A stretch of DNA of 22,109 nucleotides from a virus, in IMG/VR virus record IMGVR_UViG_3300031972_001481, positions 1 to 22,109 of that record, one strand, 5' to 3'. The notes under the pieces are model-generated. The model was given only the letters and a program-made list of their open reading frames with translations. It had not been told where the DNA came from and made no database searches. The number at the start of each line of letters is the position of its first letter. Position 1 is the first letter of the stretch. A program made the position numbers and the translations under genes. This document shows positions 1 through 14,944 of the stretch, in pieces.

Positions 1-2566
1 ATCTATCATCAGGTTCTCCACCACCGAATGCCCAATACTTATTCCACACCAATACTTCACCGTCTTGTCTATCCATTAATAAATCTCTAGCGTTTGGTGT
101 TCCAGCTGCGTGTTTACCAACAAATCTTATTGGAGCACTTGTCCATTCAGCATCAGGAAAGTCTGCTTTAAATAATAGTTTTAATCCGTCAATCTGTTTA
201 TCTATGTGATACGTTTCAGGTGAGTTACTTGGTGAATAATCTATACCACCAAAAGAAACTTTCTGCCAACCATTTACAGGTTCGTGAAGATTAACATATG
301 TAAACCACGGGCCTGGCAGAACGTCTGTCTTCATATCTATAAAGTCTAACTCATCTACTTTAAATTCTACCTCAAATTCAAATCCTGCAATAAGAACTCC
401 TTCACTTGGTGTAATCGTTAATGGTATTTCTATCTGATTACCTGATTGAACTCTTACTGTAGAATCAGCAGGTAAAGAAAGAACAACGTCAACATCTACA
501 CTTGCATTGGTTGCCATAATTTTGTTTGCGTGTCTTGTTGGTGGACTCCCACCCCAACGATAAAATGTAGTACCCTCATTATCAATGTATCCATCATTAG
601 CAGTTCCTCTACCAGTCTTACCATCATCTCCAACTTCTTTTACTTTTGTACCTGTAGTGTTTAAGTCACCTGTAAAATAGTATCCTACGTCAGGTAAAAG
701 ATAATCTGGATTATCATCGTTGTCGGTTCTGTTTGGCGCCCAAGATGAATATCCATTTCCAAGAACTATATGGAGTGTATCCAATCCTGTTTGGTGGTCA
801 TCCATCAAAGGGTTTATAGTTTCTATCTGACCAAAGGTTAATGCTTTTTGAGCAGTAGCTAAAGCTCTTGTTGTGGTTATTGGTGAATACTCTCCGTCAT
901 TTTCTGTTGGTGCGCCAGAAGCTCTATCACCACCATTGTTTGTATTAGCGGTTGTGTTCTCATCCCAATATATTGTATACTCATATTTGTTTAATCTTGT
1001 TTGACCATTTACTGTATTATAATATCCGTAGTCTAATGCACTACCACCCTCTTCAAATTTTTCTATTGAAGCCCAATCTTCGTATGTGTCTCCATTGTGG
1101 TGTGTATAGTTTGATAATAATCCTGCTGAGTAAGACCATAGTATATAAGTGTCATTTAAGAAAAAGTCATCATCACCATCTACATCACCGATTAAATATT
1201 CAAGAGCAGTCAACGTATCTATTCGTGTACCACTATATTTCCAACCAACGTCATTTGCGTTGTAATTATGATGTTTACCAGATTGGAAATTAAATGAAAG
1301 TATAGCATCGGTTACATTTGTGATAGCAGTTCTATCTACTTCGAAGTGGTCGTGTGTTTCTATACCATCACTAGCATCAGGTGGCCAGAATGAAACACGA
1401 TACCTATTGTTTCTTGGTAACTGTATTTGATAATATCCTTTATCATCGGTGTAAGTTGAGTCATAATAAGATATTCCAAGAAATCCTTCAGCTGGTAAAG
1501 TTGCATCACCAGTTGTGGCTGTATTACCGTTAAGTGCTTTTTTATTGTATCTAAATGTTGATGCATGGTCTCCAATAACATCATCACTTCCATCCTCATC
1601 TGCTGCATTAGCATCGTTTGCTATGACTTCTAAGTTATGCCAATTAGTTATTCGTGGAGTAAAGTTAGCTTCGTTTCTATCTAACTCAAATTTTACTTTC
1701 CAATATGGATATGTGTTTTCTGCTGGTGCACTCCAAGCAGCTCCAATAGCTCTATCCTTACCTTGAATGTATCTGTAGTATCCCTCAACATCAACAAGTT
1801 TTGGATGTAATGTAATATCACCACGAGCACCATCTAAGTTAGTTGATTCTGTTCCGTAATTACCATCTATATAAACCTTATAGTTTACAGCATAATTTCC
1901 ATCAGTTACATAGGTATAATATCCTGTATCGTTTTCATATTCGGTAGCTACTCTAAATGCTCTTGGATGAAAGTTATCTGCTACATCTTCTACTTTAAAA
2001 TGTAATTTTAATAATTCTTTTTGTACGCCATCACCACCACCAAATTCGTGTGTAGCTACATTGTGAGATACCATTGTTATTCTTAACCAATCATATCTAG
2101 CATCAGTAGCTGATTTTTCATTACCATTACTAGCTATACCATCAGTATAACCTACATCAGCATAACGAACTACCTCATAAGAATATTGGTGGCCACTTCC
2201 TGCATTGTCACCTTCTGTCCAGCCAGTTATGTGAGCACCTTTTTGTACGTGAGTTGAATCTTCAGCCCAACTAAAGATATCGTTATCAAATACAATGTCT
2301 AAACGAAAGGCACTAACGTCTGCTCCGTTATCATCAAGTGTAACGGCAACTGTCATTACATCATCTCTCCAAGCATCAAAGTTATTATTATTTTCTGCTG
2401 GTTTAGAAATGTCATCAGCCAAGTATGTTCTCAAACTATGAGTAACTTGGTCTCTCCACCAAAACTTTGGTGTCTTATATTCTCTGCTCTGCATAAGTCT
2501 TATGATGGGTGTTTGTGAATATACAAAACTCATAACCATCAAGAGGCTTAATAAAAATCTACGCAA
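1..2566 (-). CDS. Large secreted protein with cohesin-like and dockerin-like modules (C-terminus beyond the window)
   Basis: The frame stays open from a TTG start at 2566 to the window edge (855 codons), so the gene is 3'-partial. The TTG is chosen because GGAG lies 9 bases upstream and the product begins with a signal peptide (MRRFLLSLLMVMSFVYSQ). An in-frame ATG at codon 10 would destroy that signal peptide. Residues about 48-110 and 682-840 look like cohesin-type beta-sandwiches (for example SGNQIEIPLTITP). Residues about 370-405 resemble a carboxypeptidase-regulatory-like fold. Residues 460-475 (GDVDGDDDFFLNDTYI) form a DxDxDxxxxxxD calcium loop as in dockerin, and a degenerate partner (TNVTDAILSF) lies about 35 residues earlier. 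Such modules are known from extracellular FCB-group and clostridial proteins; finding them next to a phage tail operon is unusual. Possible roles, all inferred, are a surface or exported adhesin, glycan binding, or a host-derived cargo gene. Domain calls are from pattern memory and moderately sure. Confidence 0.8.
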   Translation of the reverse strand, partial: MRRFLLSLLMVMSFVYSQTPIIRLMQSREYKTPKFWWRDQVTHSLRTYLADDISKPAENNNNFDAWRDDVMTVAVTLDDNGADVSAFRLDIVFDNDIFSWAEDSTHVQKGAHITGWTEGDNAGSGHQYSYEVVRYADVGYTDGIASNGNEKSATDARYDWLRITMVSHNVATHEFGGGDGVQKELLKLHFKVEDVADNFHPRAFRVATEYENDTGYYTYVTDGNYAVNYKVYIDGNYGTESTNLDGARGDITLHPKLVDVEGYYRYIQGKDRAIGAAWSAPAENTYPYWKVKFELDRNEANFTPRITNWHNLEVIANDANAADEDGSDDVIGDHASTFRYNKKALNGNTATTGDATLPAEGFLGISYYDSTYTDDKGYYQIQLPRNNRYRVSFWPPDASDGIETHDHFEVDRTAITNVTDAILSFNFQSGKHHNYNANDVGWKYSGTRIDTLTALEYLIGDVDGDDDFFLNDTYILWSYSAGLLSNYTHHNGDTYEDWASIEKFEEGGSALDYGYYNTVNGQTRLNKYEYTIYWDENTTANTNNGGDRASGAPTENDGEYSPITTTRALATAQKALTFGQIETINPLMDDHQTGLDTLHIVLGNGYSSWAPNRTDNDDNPDYLLPDVGYYFTGDLNTTGTKVKEVGDDGKTGRGTANDGYIDNEGTTFYRWGGSPPTRHANKIMATNASVDVDVVLSLPADSTVRVQSGNQIEIPLTITPSEGVLIAGFEFEVEFKVDELDFIDMKTDVLPGPWFTYVNLHEPVNGWQKVSFGGIDYSPSNSPETYHIDKQIDGLKLLFKADFPDAEWTSAPIRFVGKHAAGTPNARDLLMDRQDGEVLVWNKYWAFGGGEPDDR

Positions 2567-2639
2567 TGTAAATCTCCTCGTTATGTTTTAAGTTAAGCAA
2601 CCTTTTAGAATAAAAAGGGTTTTGATTTTATTCCTTATA

Positions 2640-2671: not shown

Positions 2672-3748
2672 TTAGTTCGTGTCAAACCTCACAACAAAGG
2701 TTAAAGATAGTTCTTTTTCATTTTTAATAGGCATCGCTGGTTTACCTACTGCTAATAATTCGTTTTCGTCATTATATAAACCAATAGCAGTTACATAAGT
2801 TGCAAATTCAGAATGTGTTGTTACACCTAAAAATTCAGTACCCATATTATAACCAACTGAATCAAATGAACCAGTCGCATAACCCAAACCATCATAAATA
2901 AAATTATCATCAATTGTATTTGTATATTGTGTTATTGGAAAAGCTGGAATACTTATACTTCCACTACGACCAACTCTTGCACTTTTATTATTAGTAAATT
3001 GAAATTCATTTTCTCCAGCTGGACAGGTATATTCTCTTTCATAAATTGTTTGACTAGCTCTAAAATTAACAGTAAATCCGTCACTACCTTCAAGAGTTCC
3101 TACGGTAGAATATGAGCCAGTATCAGTTATGACAATTAATCCATCACTATAAAAAATGTTACCAACTACACTACCACTATTAGTGGTGGTTGGTGTTCTA
3201 TTTGCATAACTTGAAGAGAATGCAGTATCATATATGTTTCCTCTACCATCATCTCTCAACACAAAAGTTGTAGCCAAACTCTCATCAATCATTTCAAAAG
3301 AACCGGGTTTTATGTATTCACCATAAAATTTTTGAGGTAGTGATATTACAGTAGCAGTGCTGTGTAGTTGTCGAGTATATGGTCTTCTTAATTTTACTGA
3401 AGATGAAGGTGTTTGTAAATGATTAATTGAAATATATTCATTTATTGCATTAGAAGATGTTGGAACACCTCTGATGTAATCAATATAACCTCTCATATTA
3501 CGAACATCTTTATAATATAAAGTATTTATCATATGATAATTTGGTACTTTATAAAAAACACTTCCTGATATTGTTTTGGTTGATGCAGTAGATGTAGAGA
3601 AATCGTAGAGATTACTATCAGAACCTTTTATTATTGGTACGGAAAAAACTCCACTTCCACTATCAGTATCAGTAAAAGAAAACTTTTTATGTACTTGAAA
3701 GGATGATAATGATATATCGCTTGGTTCAAGATTTTTCTTGAATGACAT
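2672..3748 (-). CDS. Phage tail/fibre-associated structural protein, paralogue of the next gene upstream
   Basis: The 358-residue protein is the last gene of the structural block. Its start at 3748 has a strong AAAGGAG site 7 bases upstream. The C-terminus (AIGLYNDENELLAVGKPAMP) matches in pattern the end of the adjacent 343-residue protein (SVGMYNSDNELLAIAKLSKP), so the two look like diverged copies sharing a terminal domain. This GLYN-x-x-NELLA signature recurs, from memory, in tail proteins of marine T4-like phages and is probably an assembly or attachment module. No signal peptide, membrane segment or enzyme motif is seen; the composition is Ser/Thr/Gly-rich and beta-like. A role as a baseplate-distal or short-fibre component is inferred from position. 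The exact T4 counterpart is not identified. Confidence 0.75.
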   Translation of the reverse strand: MSFKKNLEPSDISLSSFQVHKKFSFTDTDSGSGVFSVPIIKGSDSNLYDFSTSTASTKTISGSVFYKVPNYHMINTLYYKDVRNMRGYIDYIRGVPTSSNAINEYISINHLQTPSSSVKLRRPYTRQLHSTATVISLPQKFYGEYIKPGSFEMIDESLATTFVLRDDGRGNIYDTAFSSSYANRTPTTTNSGSVVGNIFYSDGLIVITDTGSYSTVGTLEGSDGFTVNFRASQTIYEREYTCPAGENEFQFTNNKSARVGRSGSISIPAFPITQYTNTIDDNFIYDGLGYATGSFDSVGYNMGTEFLGVTTHSEFATYVTAIGLYNDENELLAVGKPAMPIKNEKELSLTFVVRFDTN

Positions 3749-3761
3749 ATGTTAACTCCTT

Positions 3762-4793
3762 TTAGAAATCAAGTTTGACTTTTATAAGAGCTTCTCTCGA
3801 TTTTGATTTTATAATCGGTTTACTTAATTTTGCTATAGCTAATAACTCATTATCACTATTATACATACCAACAGAAGTTATAAAAGTCTTTGGGTCTGCT
3901 TGTAATCCAGATATAATTCTTTTAACACCTGCAATTGACTCTGTATAAAAAGTTTCATTTGTTGTAGCGTTAAAATCATTAGCAGTTGCTCTTACAAAGT
4001 AATGACGAGACGTTATTTGTTCTTGTCGTTTAGCTTGGAAATATTTACCAAGTTTTACTGCGTTGAAGAACTTACGTGCATTTCCACCAAGAGTATTTGA
4101 AGCGGTTGATATAGATAAACCCAATTCACCTGGTGATTCAAGTCTATTTGAATTTAACACAATAACACCAACTGTTGGATAGAATGTTCCATAAGAACCA
4201 CTAAGAGCATCAACGGTTGCAGTATCTTTTATTGTAGTTCCACCTACTAAACTACCACTAACAACATTATATTCAGGAGCAAAATTTCTCCTTGTTGTAT
4301 TTCCACCTTTATTTGTGGATGAATCATCAATTAATTTAACCACGTTATCAGTTCCTGCACTTGCAGATAAATGTAATTCCCAACCACCTGGTTCTAAAGA
4401 TTCTCTAATTCTAGCTCTATTAAGAGATAGAACAAAAATATCATCAGCAGTAAAAGTACCAAATTTAAATTTATCTGTTTGTGGTGGGTTAATGAGATTG
4501 TTAAATTGTCCATACACCGCTGCTGCTGGTCTTTCACCTGCCACACCGACTCCACCTAAAGAACCACTACCCGCATAGTGACCATATGCTACTCCAAACT
4601 GAACTGATGCTGATGCGTTTCCAGTTGGGTTATATCTGTATACGTCAAGACTATAATCTCCAGTACTGCCACTTTGTGTGGTGTTATTAAAAAATGTAGT
4701 TATCTTTGATGCACCATCTTGGAAAACACCTGATGTAACAACTGCTACATCTGATATCACATCATCGTTTGTAAATTCTTTATATAATGCCAT
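3762..4793 (-). CDS. Phage tail structural protein, marine T4-like type
   Basis: The 343-residue protein starts at 4793 with AAAGGA about 10 bases upstream. The middle section has features I recognise from marine T4-like phages: a QFGVAYGHYAGSGS stretch near residue 64, then AVYGQFNNLI and a LSLNRARIRESLEPGGWELH segment near residues 125-142. The C-terminus carries the same YNSDNELLA signature as its downstream paralogue. Together these suggest a virion protein near the tail tip or baseplate rim. It is separated from the following gene by only 13 bases, so the pair is probably co-expressed. No catalytic motif is evident. Assignment as a structural protein is fairly sure; the specific subunit is unknown. 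Confidence 0.75.
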   Translation of the reverse strand: MALYKEFTNDDVISDVAVVTSGVFQDGASKITTFFNNTTQSGSTGDYSLDVYRYNPTGNASASVQFGVAYGHYAGSGSLGGVGVAGERPAAAVYGQFNNLINPPQTDKFKFGTFTADDIFVLSLNRARIRESLEPGGWELHLSASAGTDNVVKLIDDSSTNKGGNTTRRNFAPEYNVVSGSLVGGTTIKDTATVDALSGSYGTFYPTVGVIVLNSNRLESPGELGLSISTASNTLGGNARKFFNAVKLGKYFQAKRQEQITSRHYFVRATANDFNATTNETFYTESIAGVKRIISGLQADPKTFITSVGMYNSDNELLAIAKLSKPIIKSKSREALIKVKLDF

Positions 4794-5608: not shown

Positions 5609-8600
5609 TTATGTATCGTCTACCACATTGATATCACCAATGACACCATCTACTGGAACAGCTACTGTTGGTGAACTTCTGGTTGTAATTATTGGTAATT
5701 TACCATCTAGTGTTGTATCAATTGTATTTTTAACACCTTCATAAAAACTATTATTGAATGCAGTTATGTCTGTATATCCTGGGTCTATATCTGTGTGTGC
5801 TAAAGACTTAGAGGTGAAAAAGTGTAAATATCCATTTTCATCTGTATCTGTATATAATCTATTACCAGCACTTGTTGTTTTTCTATTACTTTTTTCATAT
5901 TCAGCAGAACTTGTATAGAAAAAATTATATATTTGATTTTTATTTGTTGGTATCTTTTTATTTTCTATAAATGAACTTGTAGCTTCAGTAAATACTTTAT
6001 TAGGCCCACCAAATGATGCTGTAGCTTCTATGTAAAGATTTCTATCACTAAAATTGTCATTAGCTGCAAATCTATATAAGGATGGAGTTCTAAACACATC
6101 AGTGCTATTACTTATATCTCCTGTAAAATTAGGAAATTCCGTACCAACTATTACAACTGAACGACTAGCCTCGTTTTCAGGTTCTTGTATTGACAAGTTA
6201 ATTGTTTTTTCATAGAAAGGTTCAGTTTTAACTGGATTATTTCTTTGTACAGGTGATTTAGGTCTCTCAAAAATATTACCTTCAATTAAAGTTCCCATAT
6301 TAGACTTTGCTCTAGCTGGTATCACTTTTTTTAATTGTTTAAATATATTTTGATCGTAATATTTTATTAATCGAATGTAATCAAAAAAGTTATTATTGCC
6401 TGTATATTTTTTAAAGTAAGAATCAGATACATCTCTTAACGTACTATACATTTCATCAAAATTATCTCTTGGGTCACCAATGAACTGATTAAAATCAAGA
6501 TTTGCAAATGATGATACAATGTCCTCATTAATAACATCAGTTGGTGAAAAGTATATTCCTAATTTTGGTGAGTCTAAAGGTGCAAAATCATTAGAACTAA
6601 AATCAGCTCTTTTATCTACTGATAACGAAGCACCACTACCACTTAAAAAATTATTTTCAATTCTAATCTTTGTAGCCATTCTACGATTAGGGCCGTGATT
6701 AGGTATAATAGTTTTTGTTTTATCTACAACGGATTCAAATGTATTGGCTCCACCAAAGTGATTTGCACTACCACTTTGTGTATAAGTTTGATTAGCACTT
6801 GTGTCTCTTATAGATGCACTACTTGCTAAAGTTGTATTGTCATCAAAACTAAATCTTCTAACTAAATTGGTATAAGAAGATGAAACACTATTTCCAATAT
6901 ATGATTTTGGTGTGGATACGTGAATATCAAATTTATCTTCATCTAATGGTTCAGTCCACAATCTAAATTCCATCATTGAACCAGAGAATTTATTTGCTCC
7001 AAATGGTGTTGTATTATTACCACCAATGAATAAGTCACCACTACCAGTCCAAGACGCGTTGTATGAATGTGATGCTGCAGTAGAGCTTGAAATTATTAAA
7101 TTTGATTTTGAAGATAATTTAATTCTATCTAATCCTGCATCATATTTTTTTACAAATAAATCATAACTAAAATCATCAGCAATCGCATCTGTGTTGGATG
7201 AAATTTTTCTTAGGGATACATCGTCAAATAAAATAGAACTACTTGGTTTATTATTTTCAAAACGAATACCTAGTTTTACAGTATTTCTAAATTTAATAGT
7301 TTTCTTTACTTGTATTTGTTTCCACTCAGTTTCGTTTAATCCAACTGCTTGAGATGATTTTATACCACCATCAATTGTATTATAATCAAATTCTTCTGTC
7401 CAATTAACAACTTCTTCATTAGAATCTAACTCAAATAAATTTATACTAGATACTGAATCAACTTCACTACCTGATGCTTTTGCATACACACTAAACAAAT
7501 ATGTCTCACCAACGGCAACAGTAGCCAAACTAGCATTATTTCCTGGATAAATAGTTGGGTCTGGATTTCTATGAAAATATGTATAAGATGTATTATCAGT
7601 AGATGTGTTAGAATGTTTTAAACTTTTTGTACCTGTTCTAGCTACATTTGAACTACTAACAATTTCAATTCTACCAAACTCTGCACTATTACTACCAGTT
7701 ATAAATGGTGGATTAAATAATCCTGCATTAGAACCAACCTCAAAAGATGGAAATGGAAATAACTCAGTCTCAATTTTTGATTTTCTCAACATAACAGAAT
7801 GATATTCACCATCAAAAACAGGCATTAATGAAGAACTTATTTCTTTGTATCCAGAAGAGCCAGATAACATAAATGAAACTGTACCATTATTATCTGTTGA
7901 ACCATTATCTTTTAATCTAATTGCCCACTTATCATCTTTTTGAACTAATACTTGATTAGAACCTGATAAAGACCTAAATCTAAATTCAACTGTTTCAGGT
8001 TTTCTACTACTGTTAGTGTCATCTGCCCAAGTTGTTGTTATGTATTGACCCGCTCTAAACCCTAAAGCTCTTGTGAACTTTCTAGCTATCTCAAATTGTG
8101 CTTTGTGATTATCTTTTTGTATTCCACCATACTCACGAACTCGTAATATACTTGATGGTATACCATAACAATTCATAATAGCTTTTAAAGAACCAATTGT
8201 ACCTTTTGATTTAAGAATGTAAGGCATACTTGAAATTAATCTTTTTGTTATTTCTTTTGAAATGTCTCCCTCAGGTGGTGAACTTAATGAACCTGAAGTA
8301 TATAAAGAATAACTATTACTACCACTTACTGTTTCAACTTTTTGACCAAATCCAAATCTACTTAAATCTAATAAATCTTTTCCATCTTGTGTATCCCAAC
8401 CTAAAGATTTTGCTAAATTAAAAACTAAATCTTTTGAAAACCCTTTACTCAAATCACTTTGTCTATCTGTTATTTCAGATATATTTTTAGTGTATAACCA
8501 AAGTTCATCAAATTGTTGTCCTATCATATCCATAAATTCTAAAAATTGTTCATTACCAATATCTTCCCTAACGTGTTGAGGTAATAAATTTACTAATCTA

Positions 8601-12955: not shown

Positions 12956-14944
12956 TTATTCTCCTGGCCCTAAGTTATCACCAACAACTTTACCTTTGAT
13001 GTCTGTATTAGGGTATTTTACTTCAAATATACTTGGGTCTAATGCTGTATATATTACGCCATTAATCGTTGCAGATTTGATATCAAAAACATTTCCTGAA
13101 TACCCTTCTGATGGTTTGTATTTGTTTGTAACTACAATTGGTAATTTTTCTGGATTATTTTCTGTTGGTGGAACAACTGAAGATACACCATCAACTAAAG
13201 ACAATTCATATATTATATCAGACAGAATTATTGGTTGACCAATTTGCCAGTTTTTTATATCAAAGTAATCTTGAACTACACTTACACATCTAAGTAGAAC
13301 ATCATTTTTATTAAATCCAACTTTAGTTAATATTGCAAAGTCCACTGCTACATCAATAATGTAAGCGTCTTTTATATTTACTGCATCAGTAACAAGTCTA
13401 AATTGAGAAAGGTATGTTTTTAAATTTTCTTTAACAGTTGGTGATAATTGTGTTAAATTTCCAATTGAATCATAACCAAGTGAATACATATTCATTGCTA
13501 ATGGATTTGGTATCCTTGATACTTGTAATGCTCTTAGTGATTTACCAATATCATCTTCATTAACTTTTCTATTTAAATCATCCAATTCAAATGACTTACT
13601 TAATTGGTCATCTTGTACTAAATGAACTTTTGCAATGTTACCAAACTTTGCTGGAAGAGCATATGCTCTAACAATATAATCTTCTTTAGTTACTGACCTC
13701 TGTTGTGATTGAAAATAAGCCAATGCATTTTCTCGTACTTCCCTAACACTCTGACCACCAGCACCACCAGTTGCAGGATTTGGATTTGAAAAACCTACAG
13801 AATTTTTTGATTCTTGAACTACTCCAGCAGTTAATAAAGCATCTTGTATTTCAAATGTTATTGAAGATAACTCATTAATTTCACCACTATTAACATTATC
13901 ATCAATACCACCACCGTGTGAATATTTAATTGTAAGTGTTGTATTAGATGGTGCTAATCCAAAAGTTCTTGTGTCTAAAAAATTACTTGGGTCAAAGGCT
14001 TTATTTAAATAAGTTGGACTACCTGGTAAATTAGAACCAACTGAATCTGGATTTGGTATAATATCTTCATCAGGATTATTTGATATACCAGCTCCAAACC
14101 TCAATGTGGTTTCATCATTATCATTTATATATGTTGTGAACCTACGAGAAGTTTTTTTCAATTTTAAAATATAAGGTGCTGTATCTCTATTAATAACTGA
14201 TGTAGGATCATTTGTAGAGTTATTTTCTACCTCATCAAAAATTGTATCTCTTGCTAATGAGTCTACTTCAGACCAATTATTACCATCACTATCAGTACAC
14301 GATATAATTTCTATAACATCGTCATTACCTAATTTTATTTGAGAATACTTTTCAGATGACCCAAATGAAAAGAACTCTGTTGAAATATCACCACTCTCAG
14401 CTTTAACTTGTTTTTTTAATAAGTATTTTGTTGGTGTTCCACTATCACTTTCAAATATTGTAGATACACGTGGACTTGATGGTGTATCAAATTTAAAATT
14501 TACATCTTCTAGTGTTCTAAACGTTGTACCTGTTGATGATGCTTTTACAGTAACTCCAGCTTTTACTGTAAGTGCGTATCTGTAATCTGGGTTTCCATTT
14601 AAAGCTGGAATGGTTTGGAATACATCTAAAACTACATTAGATGGTGAAGTTACTCTTGGTTTATATCCAAATGATTGTGCTATATTATATACGTTTCTTT
14701 TTTCTTCCGCGTAAGCAAGAAGTGATTCTCTAAATTGTGAATCAACATAATATGAAAGAACATCACCAACGTAAGATGCCATTTCAATAAACATCATACC
14801 AGGTGAAGCTTCGTTAAAATCATTATATGTGTTTGGAAAATATATTTTAGCAAACTCTATAAGATTATCTCTAAAGTCACTAAAGTCTTTGTTAAGATAA
14901 TTAACTTGTTTTACCATATTCTTTTTTGTACTTGTACGTGCCAT
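12956..14944 (-). CDS. 6: Baseplate wedge protein, gp6-like (baseplate J family)
   Basis: The 662-residue length almost equals T4 gp6 (660). The N-terminus (LNKDFSDFRDNLIEFAKIYF, then FNEASPGMMFIEMASYVGDV near residues 42-60) is the classic signature of gp6 and baseplate J-type wedge proteins in T4-like and marine phages, followed by YVDSQFRESLLAYAEEKRN. The central region carries GGAGGQSVREVRENALAYF near residues 397-415 and then QRSVTKEDYIVRAY, also typical. The C-terminus is Asp/Lys-rich and ends in a conserved DIKSATING segment. gp6 dimers form the wedge scaffold that reshapes the baseplate at contraction. It lies directly downstream of gp25, matching the order in T4-like phages. The ATG at 14944 has AGGG upstream. 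This is one of the surest calls in the window. Confidence 0.92.
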   Translation of the reverse strand: MARTSTKKNMVKQVNYLNKDFSDFRDNLIEFAKIYFPNTYNDFNEASPGMMFIEMASYVGDVLSYYVDSQFRESLLAYAEEKRNVYNIAQSFGYKPRVTSPSNVVLDVFQTIPALNGNPDYRYALTVKAGVTVKASSTGTTFRTLEDVNFKFDTPSSPRVSTIFESDSGTPTKYLLKKQVKAESGDISTEFFSFGSSEKYSQIKLGNDDVIEIISCTDSDGNNWSEVDSLARDTIFDEVENNSTNDPTSVINRDTAPYILKLKKTSRRFTTYINDNDETTLRFGAGISNNPDEDIIPNPDSVGSNLPGSPTYLNKAFDPSNFLDTRTFGLAPSNTTLTIKYSHGGGIDDNVNSGEINELSSITFEIQDALLTAGVVQESKNSVGFSNPNPATGGAGGQSVREVRENALAYFQSQQRSVTKEDYIVRAYALPAKFGNIAKVHLVQDDQLSKSFELDDLNRKVNEDDIGKSLRALQVSRIPNPLAMNMYSLGYDSIGNLTQLSPTVKENLKTYLSQFRLVTDAVNIKDAYIIDVAVDFAILTKVGFNKNDVLLRCVSVVQDYFDIKNWQIGQPIILSDIIYELSLVDGVSSVVPPTENNPEKLPIVVTNKYKPSEGYSGNVFDIKSATINGVIYTALDPSIFEVKYPNTDIKGKVVGDNLGPGE

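Follow-up and report, generated by a model that had tools for sequence, protein, structure and literature searches.

In the type IX secretion system (T9SS), proteins with a type A C-terminal sorting domain (CTD) are exported by Sec, pass the SprA translocon and are collected by PorV, and type B proteins have dedicated PorP/SprF shuttles, which are often encoded by an adjacent gene and are also able to anchor the cargo (PMC12618676, PMC9143113). SprB/SprF and the other type B CTD–PorP/SprF pairs consist of a gene for an adhesin-type cargo and then the gene for its dedicated outer-membrane shuttle/anchor. Phage cargo for this system is known from Cryophage, a Bacteroidetes phage that encodes proteins with T9SS type A sorting domains, and its authors suggested that it hijacks the T9SS of its host and perhaps excludes superinfecting phages (Bellas et al., 2020; PMC7468147). 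This was the sole report of phage T9SS cargo that we found in the open-licence literature, and none of a phage PorV-like shuttle was found there. The locus described here shares the gene order of the SprB/SprF-type pairs, but those are cellular and combine a type B CTD with a protein of the PorP family, while this one is viral and combines a type A CTD with a PorV-like protein, so that the phage layout, as read from its genes, is type B gene logic built from type A parts. It also differs from Cryophage, whose report, in the available text, mentions no shuttle and names as cargo an endoglucanase, a GH39 protein and a PA14 protein, all hypervariable among variants (PMC7468147), while here a single conserved cargo of cohesin type is a fixed feature of the phage group and has a PorV-like gene as its partner.

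The window, the whole stretch of DNA analysed, is a linear viral record of 22,109 bases. ORF calls bore out the open frame of at least 855 codons noted in the first-pass annotation and placed it on the minus strand at 2..2566. The gene starts with a TTG codon preceded by an RBS-like GAGGAG (ribosome-binding-like GAGGAGA, 2572..2578, minus strand), and its end is missing because it runs off the contig; judged from relatives, the part beyond the contig end amounts to about 90–100 aa and is the sorting domain. Homologues in IMG/VR, together with a hydrophobic N-terminus and a Q/xPIIR junction common to 34 aligned proteins, mark it as a true gene: a scan with the window protein returned 68 loci at 46–94% identity, and one with an alignment returned 150 encoding stretches. 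Complete relatives are 858–1017 aa long and have a C-terminus of one kind in all those examined. The position after baseplate and tail genes on the same strand was also confirmed, as tail genes on the minus strand of the window run leftwards to the cargo and correspond in order to gp153–gp166 of Flavobacterium phage immuto (vB_FspM_immuto, MW353175.1). They include a baseplate wedge protein (12956..14944; phrog_6, E 1e-20; 40% to immuto gp159), after which come several conserved tail-region proteins, among them the homologues of immuto gp165 (3762..4793), used as a probe for relatives with and without the cargo, and of gp166 (2672..3748), immediately upstream of the cargo, all on the minus strand. 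The tail genes are separated from the start of the cargo by an inverted repeat, AACCCTTTT...AAAAGGTT (window 2588–2620), possibly a terminator or attenuator.

By inspection, the cargo begins with the previously noted N-terminal signal peptide (MRRFLLSLLMVMSFVYSQ/TPIIR; 2513..2566, minus strand), and this N-terminus is conserved in the 34 aligned proteins. The proposal of a dockerin calcium loop held in part. A single EF/dockerin-like loop, GDVDGDDDFFLNDTYI (1145..1192, minus strand), with the motif DxDGDDxxxLND in one copy, is invariant in the alignment (D456, D458, G459, D460, L465, N466 and D467 in the numbering of relative L003), but assignment to the dockerin domain family was rejected, because the loop is single, with no second F-hand repeat found beside it, and Pfam dockerin matched neither the window protein nor any of the four full relatives and 21 N-terminal parts searched. 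Self-assembly through a cohesin–dockerin pair within the protein, as suggested in the first-pass annotation, is speculative, its dockerin half being weak. Of the two cohesin-like sandwiches proposed, the C-terminal one (approximately 40..480, minus strand) was recovered by both Pfam and Foldseek. PF00963 matched window residues 703–748 with an E-value of 0.001, below the curated cut-off, and reached 4.4e-5 and 24.1 bits, exactly at the cut-off of 24.1, in relatives L003 and L040, with lower scores elsewhere. The best PDB matches of the predicted fold were almost all cohesins; since the full-length model has low overall confidence (pLDDT 51), only these cohesin-type fold matches were used. The N-terminal domain is a beta-sandwich in a model of moderate quality and is cohesin-like by fold alone, with no Pfam match and no significant profile match to the C-terminal cohesin. 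The C-terminal domain shares its predicted fold with the clostridial cellulosome cohesins (e.g. 5nrm, 1anu), but it sits in a phage-encoded, predicted T9SS cargo, and any dockerin partner of it is hypothetical.

The sorting domain is invisible in the window because the window lacks the C-terminus of the cargo, and the window's own CTD, with an expected length of about 96 aa, and PorV-like gene are predicted from relatives at about 67–70% identity. The C-terminal sorting domain that had been raised as a check was present, as TIGR04183 (T9SS type A, NCBIfam), in every complete relative examined. Searched with whole proteins, four complete relatives gave E-values of 1.3e-4 to 3.8e-6, and one domain above the curated cut-off was found in 15 of 15 virus records, mostly the longest contigs, and in one MAG. 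The aligned length of the phage CTD was about 92–93 aa in each record, compared with 67–80 aa for full-length host CTDs of the MAG, the difference being an insert of roughly 15–20 aa, FTNEPSVWLPEVSVYENHQ-like, ahead of the final LEPGVYIFVxxTxxxIKxxKFTV strand pair. In immuto and in G070, an uncultured phage with a 111.9-kb record, the CTD has an ordinary length of 77–78 aa, and in both of them a PorV-like gene was looked for and was absent, suggesting that the lengthened CTD accompanies the phage PorV-like gene. This correlation, in which the phages lacking the gene are two related records, is what a cognate pair predicts.

The gene directly downstream of the cargo, in the same direction, encodes a protein of 284–306 aa with a signal peptide. 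All 93 loci in which the cargo is complete and followed by 950 nt or more (50 distinct cargoes) have this gene in the next position, most commonly after a gap of 6 nt, and no locus among those examined, which were gathered via the cargo or a tail gene, had the PorV-like gene without the cargo. An independent IMG/VR scan with the PorV-like family returned 63 loci, mostly on contigs already known from the cargo scans. As far as fragments allow, the gene was present in 10 of 10 cargo-bearing virus records and in none of 12 without this cargo. Further downstream, the cargo-bearing phages encode a lipoprotein of 213 aa and signal-peptide proteins of 331 and 197 aa, three families that occur solely alongside the cargo among the neighbourhood loci. 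Relatives that share the upstream tail genes and have no cargo carry at its site, among others, a gene for a 420–436 aa signal-peptide OMP-like protein (NFFKYSTAYASFSLNAPRHQDDR...YQF; L145:11134-12432, L208:10988-12250 and others), with no Pfam or significant NCBIfam match; a similar gene occurs in the immuto-type module of G070 (L318:5311-6528).

The downstream protein matched NF033709 (PorV/PorQ family) with a best E-value of 2e-25. Scores in three of the PorV-like proteins were 76.5–90.1 bits against a cut-off of 90, which was passed by 3 of 10 cargo-bearing virus records, and NF033710, the PorV equivalog, gave 44–49 bits against a cut-off of 250. By the strict NCBI model these proteins are not PorV orthologues and they are therefore named PorV-like. 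A profile of 38 of them had a sole PDB match, chain 6h3i_F (E 1.3e-12), which is PorV in the F. johnsoniae translocon. The confident structure model (pLDDT 83.6, pTM 0.81) is a FadL-type outer-membrane barrel with an N-terminal plug and the PorV fold, and its best PDB matches were both PorV: 8gl6_F, the PorV chain of a complex in which a sorting domain is bound (E 2.6e-12, TM 0.72), and 6h3i_F (TM 0.71), with TM normalized on the PorV-like query. In a maximum-likelihood tree that included family members encoded by Flavobacteriales-order genomes (PorV, PorQ and others), with host PorV and PorQ labelled by us from length and model score, the phage proteins formed one clade (98/94), sister to host PorV (99/96) and apart from PorQ. 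The phage protein resembles PorV, the type A shuttle, in fold and probably in family, but at about 290 aa, compared with 382–420 aa, it is about 100 aa shorter, and it is encoded beside one cargo, while host PorV serves all type A cargo.

An export-tagged protein with an adjacent PorV-like gene suggests that these phages are equipped to redecorate the surface of the infected cell. We consider it probable that the cargo is a large phage surface protein that is exported by the host T9SS, collected by the phage PorV-like protein and used to coat the cell; export from the infected cell, as first proposed, is supported by the signal peptide and, in relatives, the type A sorting domain. With somewhat less assurance, we favour a virus-encoded T9SS cargo–shuttle pair, in which a cargo with a modified type A CTD has a dedicated PorV-type shuttle, so that a phage-built coat is delivered independently of, or in competition with, host PorV. 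The Sec signal peptide seen in the sequence would bring the cargo to the periplasm, where the type A CTD found in the relatives would feed it to the host T9SS translocon. The PorV-like barrel, given its pairing, fold and probable family in the relatives, would then collect the cargo and carry or anchor it at the surface, a task that falls to PorV for type A cargo and to the gene-linked PorP/SprF proteins for type B. At the surface, the cohesin-like modules may form a coat, to which the conserved envelope module farther downstream would contribute its products. Receptor masking against rival phages or progeny re-adsorption, or adhesion, can be guessed as the benefit, and a steady role of this kind (receptor masking, blocked progeny re-adsorption or adhesion) fits better than that of an arms-race effector.

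It is also conceivable, but in our judgement unlikely, that the cargo is T9SS-exported and that the PorV-like barrel is a separate, co-inherited OMP, such as a porin or decoy receptor, rather than its shuttle. Because they are shorter than PorV, close to the subfamily cut-off and far under the equivalog cut-off, the PorV-like proteins may not be shuttles; in addition, an unrelated OMP-like gene occupies the same site in the cargo-less relatives, and immuto and G070 carry a CTD protein without a PorV-like gene. Against this reading stand the invariable adjacency in the same orientation (93/93), the placement in the tree next to PorV and not to other family members, and best fold matches that are PorV itself, one of them in a CTD-bound complex, as well as the restriction of the lengthened CTD (92–93 aa compared with 77–78 aa) to phages with the PorV-like gene.

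The cargo–shuttle reading can be compared with the arrangement in immuto, whose gp15 (243 aa; signal peptide, cohesin and CTD; TIGR04183, 46.5 bits) is homologous to the C-terminal part of the cargo (hhalign, E 1.1e-8) and whose gp17, gp18 and gp19 correspond in this order to the families of 213, 331 and 197 aa (E 2e-49, 3e-14 and 4e-15); G070 has the same immuto-type set. Homologous tail genes and the order of the downstream-module homologues are thus shared, but immuto differs in that its cargo is 243 aa long instead of 850–1000 aa, has a CTD of ordinary length and no PorV-like gene, and lies with its module in another part of the genome (11.6–16.4 kb, with the tail genes at 76–100 kb), where immuto also has gp13, a secreted lectin, and gp14, another protein. 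This distance from the tail genes is one argument against the cargo being a virion or tail component in which signal peptide and CTD are irrelevant remnants, a reading that we regard as quite improbable. The gene does lie at the end of the tail cluster, where immuto has its tail fibre and spike genes; however, signal peptide and sorting domain are conserved across a large divergence, and the cargo gene's neighbours, which encode the PorV-like protein, the lipoprotein and the signal-peptide proteins, are of envelope type.

In immuto, gp13, a secreted C-type lectin (PF00059, E 3e-15; in L137:1528-3690), and gp14, the second signal-peptide protein, directly precede the cohesin–CTD protein, and an F-hand-like motif carried by both gp13 and gp14 resembles that of the cargo, although the profile comparison was not significant. 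That gp14 is the split-off N-terminal half of the cargo was considered from a shared YY..GD.NGTG end and the motif, both seen by eye, and was rejected, as the profiles were not significant. The paralogous families of the 213 aa lipoprotein and the 197 aa protein (L025:14312-16496), and with them gp17 and gp19 of immuto (L137:4732-5445 and 6955-7410), resemble CsgG by eye; Pfam CsgG gave a very weak match (0.018) in 1 of 15, and no PDB match was found. Neither the window-type cargo nor the PorV-like protein had a match in 50,697 phage records (cultured phages). PorV matches in the phage collection consisted of a best one, MT836897.1, and two weaker ones; MT836897.1 (L319, 'Bacteriophage sp.') was set aside, as it looks like a bacterial porU–porV–ispF chromosomal fragment labelled as phage.

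In relatives with a long flank, the cargo lies between tail genes and envelope genes, followed by a DNA primase (phrog_47, E 5e-37). The left flank, which might have proved to be host chromosome, is thus made up of phage genes in the long relatives, and phage genes on both flanks argue against host chromosome and against recent capture. The sole cellular match to the cargo was a 9.2-kb contig binned into a Flavobacteriales MAG, and this contig bears the same phage genes in the same order; the CTD model matched about 50 times in the MAG, which also encodes a PorV. A cargo profile without the CTD found no relative in 51 other genomes of the MAG's family. Conservation of the cargo is no lower than that of the adjacent tail genes, with 70% compared with 58–67% to one relative (G005) and 52–55% compared with 36–44%, the latter for the two adjacent genes, to the other three. 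Proteins combining cohesin and a T9SS CTD are known from Bacteroidota and one relative lies in the MAG, but a recently acquired host gene, or host DNA joined to a viral contig by misassembly, is hardly credible, given the phage genes in order on the MAG contig, the lack of relatives in the 51 genomes, more than 90 loci at the same site between phage genes and a conservation above that of the neighbouring tail genes. The recent capture of a host gene suggested by the first-pass annotation was accordingly rejected in favour of an old gene of the lineage, 46–94% identical between relatives, whose cellular match is a phage contig; an ancient cellular origin is likely.

If the cargo–shuttle pair is real, it would be, to our knowledge, the first viral component of the T9SS machinery, as opposed to viral cargo alone, and would give phages a concrete route to remodel the surface of infected Bacteroidota. 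It would also be a natural case of one type A sorting signal with its own shuttle, by which the features that a shuttle recognizes in a CTD become testable. Immuto, a cultured relative growing on Flavobacterium sp. LMO8, encodes a cargo homologue and shares the downstream genes, which makes the system approachable at the bench.

We infer a Bacteroidota host from the T9SS signal, the host of immuto and the one MAG. Among named phages, Microcystis phage Mel-JY01 encodes the closest baseplate wedge protein (PP395634.1, 163476–165365; 45%). No CTD and no PorV-like gene were found in this phage, and its 'major paralogous domain' gene hints at a member of the Bacteroidota in the culture as its possible real host. 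Besides a few tRNAs, two phage contigs carry predicted tmRNA genes (L122:13959-14300 and L127:14613-15024), whose tags read GTQANLTYAYA and AQDYQPTYAYA. Another phage contig (G002, 17–45 kb; L116:16700 to L118:6872) has a run of roughly 25 genes, possibly for surface-sugar synthesis, among whose products NDP-sugar epimerase-like and RmlC-like proteins and a large number of SGNH-like (GCSFT) ones were recognized by eye.
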